From Microbacterium esteraromaticum (GTDB lineage: Bacteria > Actinomycetota > Actinomycetes > Actinomycetales > Microbacteriaceae): a stretch of 64,000 nucleotides of DNA. Position 1 is the first letter of the stretch. Each line of letters starts with the position of its first letter. The stretch spans positions 930,001 through 994,000 of the forward strand of contig NZ_JAFBBS010000001.1 in assembly GCF_016907315.1 (NCBI RefSeq), read 5' to 3'. Positions 2,971-10,481 of the stretch are shown piece after piece. The notes under the pieces are model-generated. The model saw only the letters and a program-made list of their open reading frames with translations. It was not told the origin of the DNA and did no database searches. Position numbers and translations under genes: made by a program.

Positions 2971-3075
2971 CTGCGCCCGTCGGACAAGGCCGGTGAGGAT
3001 GCCCCTCACCTCATCTGAGCGCATGATGGCCACCAGCAGCCCCGCCAAGGCCACAGCGGTCACTATCGTGAGAAC
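2971..3075 (-). pseudogene. DUF4244 (Flp pilin-like) C-terminal remnant
   Basis: From about 3075 down, the minus strand encodes the end of a DUF4244 protein: IVTAVALAGLLVAIMRSDEV followed by RGILTGLVRRA. Family members normally begin with a basic stretch, a prepilin-peptidase site and AEYA before this hydrophobic helix. Those roughly 30 residues are missing, and the sequence beyond about 3075 belongs to the inserted element. DUF4244 proteins accompany actinobacterial tad genes (Rv3656c in Mycobacterium) and are thought to form the pilin subunit, so this tad system has probably lost its pilin. Confidence 0.65.
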
Positions 3076-3107: not shown

Positions 3108-3578
3108 ATGGACCCGACTGCCCTCGCCGTACTCTCTATCTTCGGCGGTGCCGCCCTGACCGCGCTCGCTGGCTTCATCGGAGCGTGGCTGCAGGGTCGT
3201 CGAGAGCACTCCCGCTGGCTGCGCGAGCAGCGGTATGAGGCGTTCACCCGCGCCATCGATCTGGTCAGCAACCTGCGCGGGATCGCCCAGGAGGTTGCTG
3301 AGCTGACATCTGAGATCAAGGACGGCCTGTCCGAGCCGGAGCTGGCGGACGCGACCGCGCGTCTAGTCGATCGCGTCGAGCGTCTCGACGTGCTCAACGA
3401 TGAGGCTGCCGAACGCATGGCTCCGCTCGTGCTGCTCGGCCCGGATGCTGTCTCCGATGGGTACGTCGCGCTCATTGGCGCAATGAATCCGCCCGGTGCC
3501 ATGGATGACGATCGAGTCAACGCCGCCGAGTCTGCCCTGACGATCGCGATGCGGGCAGCTCTCGGAGTCAAGGCCTGA
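3108..3578 (+). CDS. membrane-anchored hypothetical protein
   Basis: Not recognised. The product has 156 residues. Residues 5-27 form one hydrophobic helix, followed by a charged, largely helical cytoplasmic region of about 125 residues (QGRREHSRWLREQRYEAF and so on) that may form a coiled coil. This topology, a single N-terminal anchor and a soluble helical domain, recurs in the convergent neighbour at 3594-4217, although the sequences differ. It is the first gene inside the element, reading away from the DUF4244 junction. The ribosome-binding site is weak. A role in the element or as cargo cannot be told from the sequence. Confidence 0.6.
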   Translation: MDPTALAVLSIFGGAALTALAGFIGAWLQGRREHSRWLREQRYEAFTRAIDLVSNLRGIAQEVAELTSEIKDGLSEPELADATARLVDRVERLDVLNDEAAERMAPLVLLGPDAVSDGYVALIGAMNPPGAMDDDRVNAAESALTIAMRAALGVKA

Positions 3579-3593
3579 TTCGCCTGGCAGATC

Positions 3594-4217
3594 TCAGCGC
3601 CGGAATCGCCAAAAGCGCCGTCTCCGCTGCCGACGTGCGACGACCGCGGCTCCGCCCAGCTTCTCGATCTCGGCGCGCCGCTGTAGCTCGGCTTCGTCCA
3701 GCTCTGACGGGTCGACTTCCTCGCCGCCGGGGCGCACCGCTCCCGAGACGACGCCGTCGTACATCGTCTGCCAGAAGTCGACCACCTGCTGCTGGATACC
3801 TTTCGGGGACCGCTCGCCCCGGTACCAGGCGGCTACCTGCGCCGTCGTCGCCGAGACCAGCGAGTGATTGGCCGTCGACGTCGCTTTCGTCCCGTCGGCA
3901 TGGGCGTGCATTAACGCGATCTCGAGCGCACCGGCGATCTCACCCTCACCCTTCCCCAGCAGGTAACCGAGTCGGGATGTCTGAGCGACCGCCTTCTCGC
4001 GGGTATCCCACCACTCTCGTTCCGATGCGTCGCGGTTGAGCCGGAGCATCTTCATCAGGAGAGCGTCGACCTTCGCCAGGATCTCGCCGATCTCCTGGTG
4101 CGTCTCGTCCCGCCGCTTCGCTCGGCGATCGAGGCGGTCTTTAGCCAGCGGCCCGAACACACCACCGGCCAGCGTCCCGGCGACGCCGATGAGCGCAACT
4201 ATCACGACGTCGGTCAT
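3594..4217 (-). CDS. membrane-anchored hypothetical protein
   Basis: Not recognised. It has 207 residues: an N-terminal hydrophobic segment (residues 4-24, with GVAGTLAGGVFGP), then a long charged helical region containing RLDRRAKRRDETHQEIGEI, and a very basic tail (RRQRRRRFWRFRR). It converges on the gene at 3108-3578 with only 15 bases between the stop codons. Members of actinobacterial prophages and islands often carry such one-helix proteins next to the integration site. The basic tail might contact nucleic acid or phospholipid, but nothing in the sequence decides this. Confidence 0.65.
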   Translation of the reverse strand: MTDVVIVALIGVAGTLAGGVFGPLAKDRLDRRAKRRDETHQEIGEILAKVDALLMKMLRLNRDASEREWWDTREKAVAQTSRLGYLLGKGEGEIAGALEIALMHAHADGTKATSTANHSLVSATTAQVAAWYRGERSPKGIQQQVVDFWQTMYDGVVSGAVRPGGEEVDPSELDEAELQRRAEIEKLGGAAVVARRQRRRRFWRFRR

Positions 4218-4290: not shown

Positions 4291-4435
4291 TATCTCTGAC
4301 CTGGCGTTTTTCGACCCAACCGTCCGCTCAGGCTTCGCTAGTCTTTAGGCGGTCAGCATCACACCCCCATCGCCACCGATAGGTCGCCATCGTCCGATTC
4401 CGGGGGTTCCCGAAGGGAACCTGGAATGAGACGAA

Positions 4436-4647
4436 ATGGAATCTCGACCCCGCGTCGCGACCAGCCACTACGGCGCTGCTGTCCGATACCACGGGCCTGA
4501 GTCGCCCGAGGCGGTGGATGCCCGCCGGATCTCGCTGCGGCGAAGATCCGGGCCTCGATCGGCCCGGCTCTCGCCGCCTCCGGCGCGCCACTGAAGCCCG
4601 AGCACGCCGCGCAGCTCGCGGCCCGCCTGCAGGGCGACGCACGATGA
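4436..4647 (+). pseudogene. small element protein, one-base frameshift near 4527
   Basis: The frame opening with ATG 4436 reads MESRPRVATSHYGAAV then SPEAVDARR and soon leaves any sensible sequence. In the next frame the text continues as DLAAAKIRASIGPALAASG and EHAAQLAARLQGDAR, ending at 4647. Joining them at about 4527 gives a 70-residue helical protein of the kind that often opens the early operon of actinobacterial phages and islands (an ARRDLAAAKI helix is typical). Restoring one G in the GG at 4527-4528 reunites the frame. The joined gene would overlap the next start as ATGA, like the following genes. Function unknown. Confidence 0.5.
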
Positions 4648-4781
4648 ACGCCGCGCCTGCTGCTGCACCCGTCGACGACGGCACGCTCGACCGCCTGGTC
4701 GCCGCAGCTTCAGCGCTGTCGTCGGCTACCCGCGCCCGCCTCGCGGCGCTGCCCGCCGCGAGCAAGGGGGCAAAACGGTGA
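4644..4781 (+). CDS. 45-residue hypothetical protein
   Basis: Small gene, MNAAPAAAPVDDGTLDRL and on to ASKGAKR. Its ATG overlaps the preceding stop (ATGA) and its TGA overlaps the next start (GTGA), so it sits in a translationally coupled chain at 4436-5676, which is the main reason to believe it is real. It is one predicted helix (TLDRLVAAASALSSATRARL) with an alanine-rich head. No family recognised. Confidence 0.5.
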   Translation: MNAAPAAAPVDDGTLDRLVAAASALSSATRARLAALPAASKGAKR

Positions 4782-5158
4782 GTGCAAAGGAAAGCCGCCC
4801 CGACGTCACCGGGGCGGCTAGCGAGAATCGTTTCGACGGCTCCTCTGCTGCTGTCCATCTTCTCACGGGCGGGGGACATTCGTTCCTGGTGCACTACCTG
4901 TCGCAGTTCGCCGACGCCCGCCGCACGCTGCGTGGTCAGCTCGTCTGCGTCCGGTTCTCCGGGTCTGGGCTCGCCGCTGGCCTGTGCGACGTCACCGGTC
5001 GCGTGCAGGCCACCGACCGCACCGGCCTGCTGCTCGTCGCGCCCGGTCACGCGATGCTCGACGGCTCCGAGTTCGTGTCGCTGATCCCGTGGGTTCAGAT
5101 CGAGCAGGTTGTCGTCAGCCGGGCCGATGATGTTTTCCCCGAGGAGGTCGCATCATGA
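4778..5158 (+). CDS. hypothetical protein of the element's early operon
   Basis: Unrecognised protein of 126 residues starting from GTG 4778. After about 25 polar residues it is rich in short strands separated by glycine: LVCVRFSGSGLAAGLCDVTG, TGLLLVAPGHAML and WVQIEQVVVS. This suggests a compact beta-barrel domain. It overlaps both neighbours by four bases (GTGA and ATGA), so its translation is tied to the primase-like gene that follows. A replication-accessory or nucleic-acid-binding role would fit the position, but that is inference. Confidence 0.6.
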   Translation: MSAKESRPDVTGAASENRFDGSSAAVHLLTGGGHSFLVHYLSQFADARRTLRGQLVCVRFSGSGLAAGLCDVTGRVQATDRTGLLLVAPGHAMLDGSEFVSLIPWVQIEQVVVSRADDVFPEEVAS

Positions 5159-5980
5159 GCGGCAAGCGCAAGAAGCGCCCCTACGCCGATGCGGTCGCAA
5201 GCTACGTCTCGCGGGCCTGGCCTTCGGTGATTCCCGTCATCGGCAAGGGCGGCACGGGCGAGCTCCCGACCAGCTGCACCGGTCACGACGGCACCGTCTC
5301 GCGCGCCGACCGCGACGCCTGGGCCGCCTCCAAAAAGTGGGGTGGCGAGAACGTGGCGATCTGGCATGAGCTGACTCTGGCGTTCGACGAGGACACGGCC
5401 ACCGTCGACGATCTCCGCGCACTGCTGGAGGCCGAGCGCGGCGAGCCTCTGCCCGACCTCGCACCCACCTGGTCGTCAACGGCGCGCGGGAAGGACTCGC
5501 CTCGGCGTCAGCGCTTCTATCGGCTGCCGGGTGCGGTCCCGAAGGGTATGCGGATCCGGTCCGGGCCTCTTGCCGGGACGGAGATCCCGTGGCGCGGTCA
5601 CCGCTATTCGGTCGTCTCCCCGAGCGTGCATCCGGTCTCGGGGGAAGGCTTACCGCTGGTACTCGCCGACCGGTGAGCGCTGCGACGCTCCTGCCGTCTC
5701 CGACCTCCCGCCGCTGCCGATCGAGTGGTTCGAGGCGCTGCTGGAGCCGCGCGAGGATCGCTCCTCCGCGCGCTCCGTGGACTTGGACGAATGGCGCGAT
5801 CGAGGTCGCACCAAGCCGACCAAGCGCGTGCGCGCCGCGGTACGGTCCGTGCCGACCTCGGGCGTCGACAACAACGCTCTGATGTCCATCATCGGCGCTA
5901 TCGAAGACATAGCGTATCCGGGGCTCGCAGTGGGTGCTCCCGGAGAGCATGGGTGGGTAGCGCTACGCTGGGCATGCGGG
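5155..5980 (+). pseudogene. primase-polymerase (PrimPol)-like protein, frameshifted and truncated
   Basis: The first frame (5155-5676) matches the pattern of the bifunctional primase/polymerase N-terminal domain of actinobacterial phages and plasmids: an AWPSVIPVIGKGG opening, a TGHDG box, APTWSSTARGKDS, RQRFYRLP and WRGHRYSVVSPSVHP. Right after HPVSG the frame is lost in a run of five G (5640-5644). One base over, the text continues GKAYRWYSPTGERC and DLPPLPIEWFEALL to about residue 270. Removing one G restores a single frame. The part resembling primases stops near 5975, where the lower-GC cassette begins; the usual C-terminal region is absent. It is the last gene of the coupled chain. A sequencing error is an alternative to decay. 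Confidence 0.7.
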
Positions 5981-6053
5981 GTCGTGAGCCCCGCGGCCCC
6001 GGGGGGACCGTCCCGGCCTAGAATTGAAGTGGGTCTGAGGGAGGCTGATTTCG

Positions 6054-6554
6054 GTGACGATCGATGCGTCCACACTTTCGCGTTCAGCGATCTGCGACTA
6101 TGCAGAGCGTGTGGCGGATAAGCATGGCATCTTCGCGGATGGAGATTATGCCGACCTCGAGCGTCTTGTGCACGCACTCGGCGGCAGAATTGACGTCGCC
6201 GCTTCTTTCGTTGCCCCCGAAGCCTTGACCGTCCGCGGCGAACGTGACTTTACCGTGCACCTGCCGCCCGTGACTTCCCACCGACGCGACAGGTTTACCA
6301 TCGCGCACGAGCTAGGGCACTACTTCTTGCACTACCTTCAGCCGCGCGTCCAGGGAGCACGTTCGTTCGGTCGCGGAGAGCGAAACCGAGTCGAGACGCA
6401 GGCCAACTACTTCGCTGGCGCGCTGCTGATGCCTTCTGAACGCTTCAGTCGAGCTTGGAAGCGTTGCGACGGTGACGCGTGGTCGGTCGCCGACCGTTTC
6501 GGTGTCTCTGCGAGCGCTGCGGCCGTGCGCGCCCAGTCCCTTGGCCTCAGCTGA
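6054..6554 (+). CDS. ImmA/IrrE family metallo-endopeptidase
   Basis: Zinc peptidase of 166 residues. The metal site is HELGH at residues 85-89 (AHELGHYFLHY), and the third ligand is probably E114 in VETQANYFAGALLMP, the usual COG2856 signature. It starts from GTG 6054 with GGAGG ten bases upstream. There is no N-terminal XRE helix-turn-helix, unlike many ImmA partners. The next gene starts 11 bases after the stop, so the two are surely one operon. ImmA-type peptidases normally cleave a repressor to start an SOS-like or excision response. Here the partner is a cyclase-like protein, not a repressor, so the substrate is unknown. Confidence 0.88.
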   Translation: MTIDASTLSRSAICDYAERVADKHGIFADGDYADLERLVHALGGRIDVAASFVAPEALTVRGERDFTVHLPPVTSHRRDRFTIAHELGHYFLHYLQPRVQGARSFGRGERNRVETQANYFAGALLMPSERFSRAWKRCDGDAWSVADRFGVSASAAAVRAQSLGLS

Positions 6555-6565
6555 CCCTGCGCTCA

Positions 6566-7549
6566 ATGGCACCTCCACAAGCGAAGTCGGTCCTCTTCCT
6601 GTCTGCAGACTTGGTTGGATCGACCAGCTACAAGCAACAGGCGGACGGATGGCAGAAGATCTTCCTGAGCTTCTATCGCGAGTTCCCTCAAGCACTCGCT
6701 GACGCGAGCCGTGAGTATGCGAAGCAGCACTCAGTCACAGTCGACTTCGACTTGTGGAAGGCGATTGGCGACGAGCTGATCTTCAAGGTGGAAGTGCGCA
6801 GCGAAGCAGACGTAAGTAACGCGGTCCGTGTTTGGCTGCAAGCCGTGACGGCGTACGAGAACGACTCTCTAGAAGAAGTCAAGCTTGCCCTGAAGGGGGG
6901 CGCCTTCATCGCGACCTTCCCGGGGCCGGACAGCGAATCATCGATTCCTCGATCGCCAGCCGATGAGGACTCGGATGAGCCCGTGGTGATCCTGAATGAC
7001 AAGGCCCTTAGCGGAAGGCGCGCACACACTAAGTACCTCTACGACTACTTCGGGCCGAGCGTCGACACCGGTTTCCGCGTCGCGGGGCTTGCCTCTCGTC
7101 GGTACTTCACTATGACGATCGAAGTCGTATGGGCTCTGGCCTCTATCGCGCATGCGCAGGAAACTACCCCCGGCAACGGTTCCCCTCACCATGTGCGAGA
7201 CGTGGTTTTTCGGGGCCGAGAGCCGTTGAAGGGGGTATGGCGCGGTCAGGAGTATCCGGTATTCGCGGTTGACCGCGAGATCAGCTCTCCGCTGAACGAA
7301 GCGCTGGCCAAGCTCAACGGAAGCCCGATCAATGCTCAGAGCATCACGCACGTGTGCAAGGCATGCTCAGAGAGCGAGGGATGGCCCTCTCGGCTCTATC
7401 TGCCTGATGCCGCCCACGAAGCATTCAAGCACCCACCGGTGGACGCGATGCAGTCACTGCGCGAGAATGAAGCCAAGATCACCGTCGATGTTCCGACGGA
7501 GGGGGCTGACGAAGGCGAGCCGCTCCAGGAGAACGCGCCCCTGGGATAG
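6566..7549 (+). CDS. class III nucleotide-cyclase-like protein, ImmA/IrrE partner
   Basis: Protein of 327 residues with a class III adenylate/guanylate cyclase core. LFLSADLVGST carries the first metal aspartate D15. WKAIGDELIF carries a lysine (K65) and the second metal aspartate D69 in the positions used for base choice and metal binding. Where cyclases have VNxxxR, this protein has VDTGFR (D167, R171), so the transition-state asparagine is replaced. There are no membrane helices. The start ATG 6566 has no clear ribosome-binding site, which suggests coupling to the peptidase gene. The open frame upstream of 6566 is a shadow of that gene. It may make a cyclic nucleotide or only sense one; that is inference. 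Confidence 0.75.
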   Translation: MAPPQAKSVLFLSADLVGSTSYKQQADGWQKIFLSFYREFPQALADASREYAKQHSVTVDFDLWKAIGDELIFKVEVRSEADVSNAVRVWLQAVTAYENDSLEEVKLALKGGAFIATFPGPDSESSIPRSPADEDSDEPVVILNDKALSGRRAHTKYLYDYFGPSVDTGFRVAGLASRRYFTMTIEVVWALASIAHAQETTPGNGSPHHVRDVVFRGREPLKGVWRGQEYPVFAVDREISSPLNEALAKLNGSPINAQSITHVCKACSESEGWPSRLYLPDAAHEAFKHPPVDAMQSLRENEAKITVDVPTEGADEGEPLQENAPLG

Positions 7550-8106: not shown

Positions 8107-9012
8107 ATGAGACTACTAACCGAGGGCTGGTGCGAGCGCGGCCCCTCCCTCTCCGAGGCCGCTGCTGCCGTCCCGCCTCCGGAGTCCGCATGGTGGGACT
8201 CGGCCGAGTTCGTCGACGGCCCCGAGGACGACCGCCGCGCCGCGATCAACCTCTGGCTGCTCACCGGCCTCACACCCGAGCGCCGCGACGTGAAGGGCGA
8301 GCGCGACGGCGACGGCCGCGTCGACCTGTTGTTGCGCCCGGCCGGCGCTCCGGTCGAGGTCGTCGAGGTGCTCACGACGCTGGACCGCGACCACTCCGAC
8401 GCCGTGCCGCGTGCCGCTGCTCTCGTCGCCGAGCTGAACGGCGCGGAGCCTCCCGCGCTGCTGTTCCCCATGCATCTCAAGCGCGGCTGGGAGCCTCCGC
8501 TGACGCGCGGCCGGAAGGGCAGGGCGGCCGGTCGCCGGTGGCGCGAGGTGGTCGAGCGGCTGCAGCACGAGGCTCATGCTGGGGCGATCAGCGCCGAGGC
8601 CGCGGCCGAGGCAGCGGCCGTGTTCCCCGGCATCGAGTTCCGCGACCCGATCGACGATCCCGAGCGAGGCGGGTTCTGGCTCAGCTCGCTCAACGCCGCG
8701 GTGCGCGACCCCGAGGACGTGCCCTACCTTGAGCGACTCTCCGCGTATCTGGCGGCCGAGGAGCGCCCCGTGCACCACGTCGTCAAACTCGCCCGCGAGG
8801 CAGCCGCGCTGGGCGCACAGCGGCGGCACCTGTATCTGCTCGTCGCCTCCGCAGGGCAATGGGGCGACCTGGTGCCGACGTCGCCGAGCTGGTTCACCGA
8901 CGGCACCTTCACCGCTCCCAACGGACTGACCGATCTGTGGCTCGACGGCGGCACCGGCTACATCATGCGCTGGCGGCGCGAGGGCGGTTGGACCTATCAC
9001 GAGACAGGCTGA
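8107..9012 (+). CDS. hypothetical protein of the element
   Basis: Protein of 301 residues, no family recognised. Noteworthy parts: an acidic-aromatic N-terminus (ESAWWDSAEFVDGPEDD); a segment GRVDLLLRPAGAPVEVVEV near residue 75-92 whose pattern (Asp, hydrophobic strand, then Glu in a second strand) recalls the core of restriction-endonuclease-like folds, though the usual lysine after the glutamate is missing; and a C-terminal half with LYLLVASAGQWGDLV and IMRWRREGGWTYH. GC is higher here (77% in the 60 bases 8281-8340) than in the cassette upstream. It converges on the integrase stub. A nuclease role is only a guess. Confidence 0.65.
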   Translation: MRLLTEGWCERGPSLSEAAAAVPPPESAWWDSAEFVDGPEDDRRAAINLWLLTGLTPERRDVKGERDGDGRVDLLLRPAGAPVEVVEVLTTLDRDHSDAVPRAAALVAELNGAEPPALLFPMHLKRGWEPPLTRGRKGRAAGRRWREVVERLQHEAHAGAISAEAAAEAAAVFPGIEFRDPIDDPERGGFWLSSLNAAVRDPEDVPYLERLSAYLAAEERPVHHVVKLAREAAALGAQRRHLYLLVASAGQWGDLVPTSPSWFTDGTFTAPNGLTDLWLDGGTGYIMRWRREGGWTYHETG

Positions 9013-9600: not shown

Positions 9601-10481
9601 CGAGTGGATCCCGGCCTCTCCGCCGGTGCGACGCCGAGCAGCAGGAAGGCGGGAAGGGTGCACGCGCCCAGCGGAAGAAGCAGCTTCGACGACAGGCGGG
9701 CGGCTCGCACGCGACCCTGCACACGTGCCTCGTGGCGCTGCTGAGCCGCAGAGGCCCGCAGCAGCTCGCCCGCAGGCACACCCGCTGATCGCGAGAGCTC
9801 GAGCACAGCGTCGGTGCCGTCGCGATCGTCGGGCAGCCGGCCAGGACTGTGCTCCACGAGCCGCAGAGCACGCGGGATTCCCACGCCCCCGGCGAGCGCC
9901 ACCGCGACGAGCTCGGCGTGCATGCCCGGTGTGCCTGGTCGAGGCTGCGCCGCCCGCACCATTCGCGCCGTCCACCAGCGCGCAGCCAGCACGAGTCCGA
10001 TACCGAGACCCAGGCAGGCGATGCCGAGCGGATGGGTCACCAGCACGCCGACGGTGTCGAACCCAAGCGCGAATCCGAGCAGCAGGCCGGCGAAGGGCAG
10101 CCAGAGCAGCAGCCGTGCCGTGCCGGTGGGCTCGGCGAGCGCGATGCGCACATCGTCTGCGGCCGCCGCCGCATCCTGCAGCGATTCGGCCAGCGACCGC
10201 AGCACCACGGCGAGAGGCGCACCGACGGTCGTCGCGATCTCCCACGCAGCGGCGACGTCGGACCATGCACCACCCTCGGCATCGATCGCGCCGACCAGCT
10301 CCGATCCGGCATCCATCCGCGCCGCGATCCGGCCTGCGACCGGGTCGCCGGTGTCGACGAGGTGCCGCCACGCCGTGAGCGGCCGGGCGCCCGCCTGCAG
10401 CAGCACTGCCAGGGTGCGCACTGCGGCCGCGGTCCGCTGAGGGTCATCGTGACCGGGATGCCCCTTTCGTCGCCTCACCAC
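9471..10481 (-). CDS. TadB/TadC-type pilus platform protein, C-terminus replaced
   Basis: Type II secretion system F-family inner-membrane protein of a Flp/Tad pilus. The frame joins a TadB-like half (AVLLQAGARPLTAWRHLV, WLPFAGLLLGFALGFDTVG) to a TadC-like half (LVAVALAGGVGIPRALRLVE, LSSKLLLPLGACTLPAFLLL), with several membrane helices. After LLLGVAP, about residue 288 (near 9620), family members end within about a dozen residues. Here the frame instead runs into out-of-frame integrase DNA until 9471, adding roughly 48 unrelated residues. The start GTG overlaps the tadA stop. The last membrane helix is probably damaged, so function is doubtful. Confidence 0.75.
   Translation of the reverse strand: MVRRRKGHPGHDDPQRTAAAVRTLAVLLQAGARPLTAWRHLVDTGDPVAGRIAARMDAGSELVGAIDAEGGAWSDVAAAWEIATTVGAPLAVVLRSLAESLQDAAAAADDVRIALAEPTGTARLLLWLPFAGLLLGFALGFDTVGVLVTHPLGIACLGLGIGLVLAARWWTARMVRAAQPRPGTPGMHAELVAVALAGGVGIPRALRLVEHSPGRLPDDRDGTDAVLELSRSAGVPAGELLRASAAQQRHEARVQGRVRAARLSSKLLLPLGACTLPAFLLLGVAPAERPGSTRIGAGRWRTSCAAVTRSTTSSSDSSSRASQRRTRPICSSTGSG

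Follow-up and report, generated by a model that had tools for sequence, protein, structure and literature searches.

Introduction

The M78 (ImmA/IrrE-type) zinc peptidases described to date act on a dedicated partner protein: in the parts of the literature on which we draw, CapP is activated by ssDNA and cuts CapH (PMC13373217), PprI cuts DdrO (PMC10904395), and ImmA inactivates ImmR (PMC2701414). Makarova and others also report that the phages LE1 and phiC2 carry COG2856 peptidases with helix-turn-helix (HTH) partners, and the portion of that paper used here names no class III cyclase (PMC2701414). Here, we analyze a two-gene locus in a 64,000-nucleotide stretch of the Microbacterium esteraromaticum genome (hereafter, the window) that joins an M78 peptidase to a homologue of class III nucleotide cyclases.

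The pair resembles ImmA/ImmR and IrrE(PprI)/DdrO in that an M78 peptidase has a dedicated partner, but this partner is no repressor, and HTH genes seldom adjoin the pair. The likeness to CapH+CapP also lies in the M78 peptidase: capP is its best PADLOC model (5.6e-26, over model positions 6-152 of 242), and CapP 7t5t is its top PDB sequence match (E 1.2e-9). However, at 166 aa against 291 aa for CapP 7t5t, the window peptidase lacks the rest of CapP, and its fixed partner is a cyclase rather than an HTH repressor; where CapH would call for an adjacent HTH repressor gene, the ORFs upstream of the window pair (5155-5676, 5531-6121 and 4328-5047) contain no HTH family. The partner shares with class III adenylyl cyclases (CyaB, CyaC, Rv1900c, Ma1120) the fold, the metal-binding Asp residues, the Lys/Asp base contacts and the Arg, along with a C-terminal LKG motif. 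It differs from them in carrying VDTGFR in place of VNxxxR, in further near-invariant residues (K23, W29, W64 and K110), and in its coupling to a peptidase.

Pycsar systems are like the pair in their class III cyclase fold and mobile location, and the Pycsar effector PycTM adjoins 4 of 40 loci of the pair. In contrast to Pycsar, the pair has a near-obligatory M78 peptidase, Asp replaces the catalytic Asn, 93 of 104 aligned members keep adenine-type Lys/Asp contacts, and no PADLOC cyclase model matched the 104 members. With a peptidase as its fixed partner and no PycTM, the window pair is not filed as Pycsar here, although it may work like Pycsar in part. It differs from CBASS in having no CD-NTase, its domain being assigned to the class III fold.

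Results

The gene pair and its insertion

Both genes lie on the forward strand, within DNA that is specific to this strain:

6054..6554, + strand: M78 (ImmA/IrrE-type) zinc peptidase; GTG start, 166 aa, HELGH 85-89, E114
6566..7549, + strand: class III nucleotide cyclase homologue; ATG start, 327 aa
3072..9623, ends approximate, no strand: strain-specific insertion carrying the pair; missing from each of 4 genus relatives compared

The first gene encodes a clear Peptidase_M78 domain (PF06114, E 1.3e-21 in a Pfam scan) in which the HExxH motif and the third ligand Glu are all present. A sequence-only reading of this DNA had named a zinc peptidase with HELGH 85-89 and E114, had placed the two genes 11 bases apart, and had pointed to low local GC. 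Each of these descriptions is borne out, the spacing by ORFs 6054-6554 and 6566-7549 and the composition by values of 58.3% (6661-6720) and 55.0% (6721-6780) against 70.0% (5161-5220) and 76.7% (8281-8340). Over its full 1496 nt the pair has a GC content of 61.0%, the lowest of 626 segments of the same length in a window of 69% GC.

The same reading had put the pair on a mobile element. In its favor, the pair lies on an insertion absent from all four relatives examined, out of 28 found in the genus search, and in each of them the two flank matches are only 179-845 bases apart. The right flank begins at 9624; the left-flank match ends at 2684 in one relative and at 3057-3071 in three. Window positions of about 2973-3071 form the 3' end of a small gene cut by the insertion, which has a BLAST match in three of the four relatives and runs on in two; by sequence likeness, we take the cut gene to be pilin-like and the adjoining genes to be tad-type pilus genes. 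Against the mobile-element claim, no integrase was recognised among the insertion ORFs scanned with Pfam (all but 3108-3578 and 4778-5158). The insertion also carries no tRNA or Rfam family. Since it is missing in relatives, with no integrase recognised among those ORFs, it is mobile or once was, on a vehicle that looks decayed.

Upstream of the pair, at 5155-6121, two overlapping frames (5155-5676 and 5531-6121) have no significant Pfam match and resemble fragments of a decayed replication primase-like gene. Two small proteins (3108-3578, + strand, and 3594-4217, - strand) each have an N-terminal hydrophobic stretch, and the second has no Pfam match at E <= 0.01. No effector gene was recognised beside the pair. 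Across the window's genome, PycTM is absent at E <= 0.001, none adjoins the pair, and there is no PF00211 cyclase.

The cyclase-like protein

The second gene has the following parts:

6572..7285, + strand: cyclase domain, residues 3-240
6608..6610, + strand: D15, first metal Asp; D in 101 of 104 rows with 3 gaps, and in 38 of 38 paired loci; register by hhalign
6758..6772, + strand: KAIGD, from K65 (base contact) to D69 (second metal Asp); position 65 is K in 94, R in 9 and E in 1 of 104 rows, and D69 is found in 104 of 104
7043..7078, + strand: DYFGPSVDTGFR, with D160 (base contact), D167 at the catalytic Asn position and R171 (transition-state Arg)
7286..7546, + strand: C-terminal helices and a tail of lower model confidence that includes P325; a candidate for docking or cleavage

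Residue counts refer to a 104-row family alignment (A5), and those for actinobacterial members to a 30-row alignment (A1). The AlphaFold2 model of the 327-aa protein is confident (pLDDT 94.7, pTM 0.90), and the 50 Foldseek matches listed against the PDB are all class III cyclases; PycC structures are absent from these 50, which is evidence neither way. Structure and profile comparison together place the domain in the cyclase homology fold, with both metal-binding Asp residues of class III present. By hhalign, DYFGPSVDTGFR aligns with DVFGPSVNLASR from a class III cyclase of the same order; the canonical comparison set comprised 8 hand-chosen domains of 14 extracted from 30 loci. Within this segment, VDTGFR spans residues 166-171, and position 160, the second base-contact position of adenylyl cyclases and one that the sequence-only reading overlooked, is conserved as D in 95 rows and E in 9. 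The class III motif VNxxxR is incomplete: R171 is present in 104 of 104 rows, yet Asp (D167) stands at the Asn position in 104 of 104 as well. It is because of this Asp that we call the protein a class III homologue and not a proven cyclase.

Sequence libraries place the protein less readily. Its only clear match is PHROG 18024, of unknown function (E 1.5e-26); Pfam, NCBIfam and PADLOC scans gave no family above chance level, and weak Pfam matches to Prismane, RhoGAP, Nup54_57_C and baeRF fell below cut-off and were rejected. PDB sequence searches with the cyclase or its alignments returned designed TIM barrels as best matches and no class III cyclase, so the homology rests on fold and profile comparison. 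When PADLOC models were run against all 104 members at E <= 0.01, the cyclase domain was unmatched except by one REase_II at 0.0098; PycC models are expected to be among those of this library. PDC-S07, considered as a prior PADLOC listing of the domain, was rejected, since its 8 matches among the 104 members all fall in the C-terminal Nudix-like part alone (residues ~335-469). A viral scan with the single cyclase sequence gave no matches, and among 269 other proteins there was no fused peptidase-cyclase protein with an HExxH-type motif.

C-terminal to the cyclase domain, members of the family differ. In the window protein the last three blocks of the model have pLDDT values of 80, 67 and 73, and P325 is conserved in 30 of 30 rows of A1 and in 72 of 104 rows of A5, where 21 have gaps. 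Clostridium-type cyclases add a Nudix-like part (weak MutT/NUDIX matches; PDC-S07 model 9.2e-12 at best). One such protein is the phiCD27 gp37-type cyclase (L026, 5839-7425), whose relatives match PDC-S07 in that domain. A representative of this type, P0183, has the class III fold too (pLDDT 81.8, pTM 0.61, Foldseek E 1.1e-9), and its clade is the one holding three PycTM-linked loci. A distant class III cyclase (L168, 637-1872, - strand) with GSTAYKQ and VDLAKR also has Asp at the Asn position and is a possible outgroup; no peptidase match lies within its short flanks.

Conservation and carriers of the pair

At E <= 0.001, 328 proteins match the cyclase, its own sequence included. From genome contigs (16 loci), viral contigs, and annotated phage and plasmid records, we drew 120 cyclase ORFs, under a 120-bit score limit and without the class III controls; at 90% identity they reduce to 40. 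In 38 of these 40 non-redundant loci an M78 gene lies directly upstream of the cyclase on the same strand, and this pairing, with the 328 matches, makes the observation more than chance. The two cyclases without a peptidase are L029, on a Sphingomonas plasmid, and L054, beside an integrase; at a further locus with no separate row among the 40 (L036), the peptidase ORF is cut by the contig start, with its tail visible. In the paired loci the nominal gaps, taken from the longest ORF start, run from -100 to +24 bases, and in 12 of the 38 the two genes share exactly 1 or 4 bases. The peptidase site is preserved: H85 and E86 are kept in 37 of 38, and H89 and E114 in 38 of 38. Distances among the peptidases correlate with those among the cyclases (r 0.92, a value reached in 0 of 999 permutations); part of this figure reflects common descent.

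Among bacteria related to the host the pair is patchily distributed. It occurs in 1 of 297 genomes of the order, which is the window's own, and in 5 of 394 genomes of a class sample, again including the window's; the other four loci all keep the peptidase, and three of them are strains already among the earlier relatives, leaving one new. Of 396 genomes sampled across the phylum, 2 gave a match: the window's own and, weakly, that of L168 (E 6.2e-5). Elsewhere, the pair is carried by Leptospira phage LE1 and C. difficile phages phiC2 and phiCD27, and by Leptospira plasmids, a Mycolicibacterium plasmid and a Tistrella plasmid. On the Mycolicibacterium plasmid (L028, 4623-5974), two ImmA/IrrE peptidase genes stand in tandem before the cyclase. 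The sequence-only reading had described a cyclase fold with D15, D69 and K65 kept and VDTGFR replacing VNxxxR, and had named a failed fold prediction, or a pair not conserved in other genomes, as grounds for refutation; the residues are all present, the fold prediction succeeded by AlphaFold2, Foldseek and profile comparison, and the pairing persists in the 38 of 40 loci and in all four other loci of the class sample.

Neighbouring genes and base-contact residues

For the neighbour scan we chose 40 loci by hand, a set that differs from the 40 non-redundant loci above. It gave 161 neighbour ORFs, of which 142 were scanned after 19 overlapping or doubtful ones, including all 4 of the orphan L029, were dropped by hand. 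No third gene is common to the loci at large; the widest neighbour cluster is integrases, found at 7 of ~46 loci; integrase families match 8 of the 142 neighbour proteins. HTH_3 matches 4 and the capH model 3 of the 142. Upstream of the peptidase, 61 ORFs from 33 of the 38 loci include HTH_19 once and Peptidase_S24 twice among the best 25 of 33 families. Downstream of the pair in two viral contigs, one-TM proteins that look alike by eye (L036, 2429-3265, and L038, 7011-7550, both - strand) are candidates for an alternative effector. In another locus, the gene directly after the pair (L010, 9027-9698, + strand) looks sce7726-like.

PycTM (PF18967, a membrane effector of the Pycsar type) matches 4 of the 142 neighbours at 39-47 bits against a cut-off of 27.2, and PycTIR is not among the matches listed for them. 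As a rough yardstick, since it concerns other hosts, PycTM exceeds the cut-off in 5 of 198 genomes from the order to which the window belongs, and reaches E <= 0.001 in 7. The PycTM gene follows the cyclase with a 4-base overlap in L050, directly precedes the peptidase in L056, and is convergent directly after the cyclase in L062 and in the phiCD27 type (L026/L064). None of the four loci is actinobacterial, and 36 of 40 have no PycTM. The cyclase tree places the four in two separate clades with good support, where they make up 3 of 5 and 1 of 3 rows; L050 and other distant rows sit on long branches, the tool warns on their placing, and the change count compares the PycTM loci only with the two orphans. 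PADLOC matches the same four neighbours to 2TM effector models, the best of which (7.3e-36) is better than PycTM (2.9e-31), so the signal they respond to may be a nucleotide of a different kind.

The base-contact positions 65/160 read K/D in 93 of the 104 rows, R/E in 8, and R/D, E/D and K/E in 1 each. Among the 38 paired loci R65 occurs in three, all PycTM-linked (L050 R/D, L062 R/D, L064 R/E), and L056, the fourth PycTM locus, keeps K/D. By hand arithmetic that ignores relatedness, the chance that three R65 loci would all fall among four PycTM loci is 4/8436, or ~0.0005; two of the three share one clade, and the count concerns the 38 paired loci, with nine R65 rows in the 104-row alignment. 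The cytidylate cyclase EaPycC contacts CTP through R142, four residues before its metal-binding D146 (PMC11224242). The spacing of residue 65 to D69 is the same, such that the three loci share with Pycsar an Arg at the spacing of the CTP contact. Judged from these residues, the comparison suggests that the product of PycTM-linked members may differ from the nucleotide that the window's cyclase would make.

Discussion

Three observations underlie our interpretation of the pair: a cyclase fold with its metal, base-contact and Arg residues, near-obligatory pairing, and a PycTM gene adjoining it in some lineages. We tentatively read the two genes as a mobile module for nucleotide signalling, probably directed against phage, whose M78 peptidase and class III cyclase work as a unit; taken with the mechanism proposed below, we put the chance of this reading somewhat short of even. 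The sequence-only reading had proposed a cyclase that senses or makes a nucleotide signal and so switches on the peptidase during phage attack or element induction. Its nucleotide-signalling, defence-like role draws support from the viral contigs, plasmids and islands that carry the pair and from the PycTM-type neighbour at four loci; its assignment of the cyclase as switch and the peptidase as executor is supported by no result. Since the partner is the substrate in CapP/CapH, PprI/DdrO and ImmA/ImmR, a peptidase that gates the cyclase is at least as likely as the reverse. We favor the former, because the M78 peptidases described act on their partner, the fixed partner here is the cyclase, and the peptidase stays in place beside PycTM.

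By analogy, we propose that switching falls to the peptidase, with the cyclase as its substrate. Infection or DNA stress would lead the peptidase to trim the cyclase, or to stop trimming it, and the freed cyclase would then make a cyclic mononucleotide; the C-terminal tail of actinobacterial cyclases, with P325 and lower pLDDT, is a candidate docking or cut site. Members of the K/D type, the window's included, would use ATP as substrate. In PycTM-linked members, three of four of which have Arg at the base position, another and perhaps pyrimidine nucleotide would act on PycTM. In the window strain, because no effector gene was recognised beside the pair, the signal may instead reach a receptor of the host or cause direct harm to the cell. 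A wider proposal, of which we are more doubtful, is that the family represents a class of protease-gated cyclase immunity not described before, in which a variant class III cyclase, with Asp for the catalytic Asn, is under the control of an M78 peptidase and lineages shifting from K/D to R/E or R/D have, largely in step, adopted PycTM, so that one scaffold yields purine or pyrimidine signals.

These proposals have to be weighed against other roles for the two proteins. The original arrangement, with a nucleotide sensed or made by the cyclase switching on a peptidase that cuts a host, phage or element protein, would explain why the peptidase is short and without the rest of CapP, as the cyclase could be its sensor, and why no consistent third gene was found as a possible effector; the peptidase is nevertheless kept even where the nucleotide effector PycTM is present, and no conserved neighbouring gene offers itself as a target, and we regard this arrangement as unlikely. 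The pair could otherwise regulate mobile elements, with the peptidase removing a repressor and the cyclase serving as stress sensor. M78 proteins of ICEBs1 and prophages do so in the account consulted (PMC2701414), and the pair of phage LE1 lies near a gene annotated Repressor protein CI, with HTH_3 and capH matches among the scanned neighbours as given above. Yet the gp38-gp37 pair of phiCD27 is found between lysis genes and integrase, with another metallo-protease encoded separately beside the repressor and integrase, the pair of Leptospira plasmid pLiSL40 is a few genes from baseplate J/gp47, and HTH_19 and Peptidase_S24 are scarce upstream of the peptidase, all of which makes such a role improbable.

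A toxin-antitoxin-like addiction pair, with the cyclase as toxin (through nucleotide drain or signal overload) and the peptidase as an antitoxin that destroys it, would suit a small, tightly coupled two-gene unit of patchy occurrence (1 of 297 order and 5 of 394 class genomes, own included), and COG2856 peptidases have been proposed in toxin-antitoxin-like pairs in the part of the survey used here (PMC2701414). A repressor domain is recognised in neither protein, however, and an added PycTM is unexpected for a simple toxin-antitoxin pair; we give this explanation little credence. Finally, with Asp for the catalytic Asn in all 104 rows, the protein could be a weak or dead cyclase, and in the latter case its domain might serve the peptidase as a subunit that senses a bound nucleotide. 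D69 and R171 are invariant, however, and D15 is D wherever the position is present, a conservation not required of a domain that only binds, and the PycTM linkage suggests a product, which leaves this the least probable of the readings considered.

A peptidase that gates a signalling cyclase remains our preferred reading. Among the titles and abstracts listed as matches in the open-licence literature, the pair is undescribed. Its constancy on phages, plasmids and genomic islands from widely differing bacteria, in some cases beside an effector known from phage defence, suggests that it is an undescribed defence switch using nucleotide signals. If so, it would add a protease layer to nucleotide-based immunity and provide a ready system for asking how an infection signal turns on a cyclase, a step that to our knowledge is not known for the majority of Pycsar systems. 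As K/R and D/E changes occur naturally at both base-contact positions, and some loci have PycTM while others lack it, the choice of base can be tested directly. The pair would also give a function hypothesis to PHROG 18024 and 6174, two families of unknown function carried by the long-known phages LE1, phiC2 and phiCD27.
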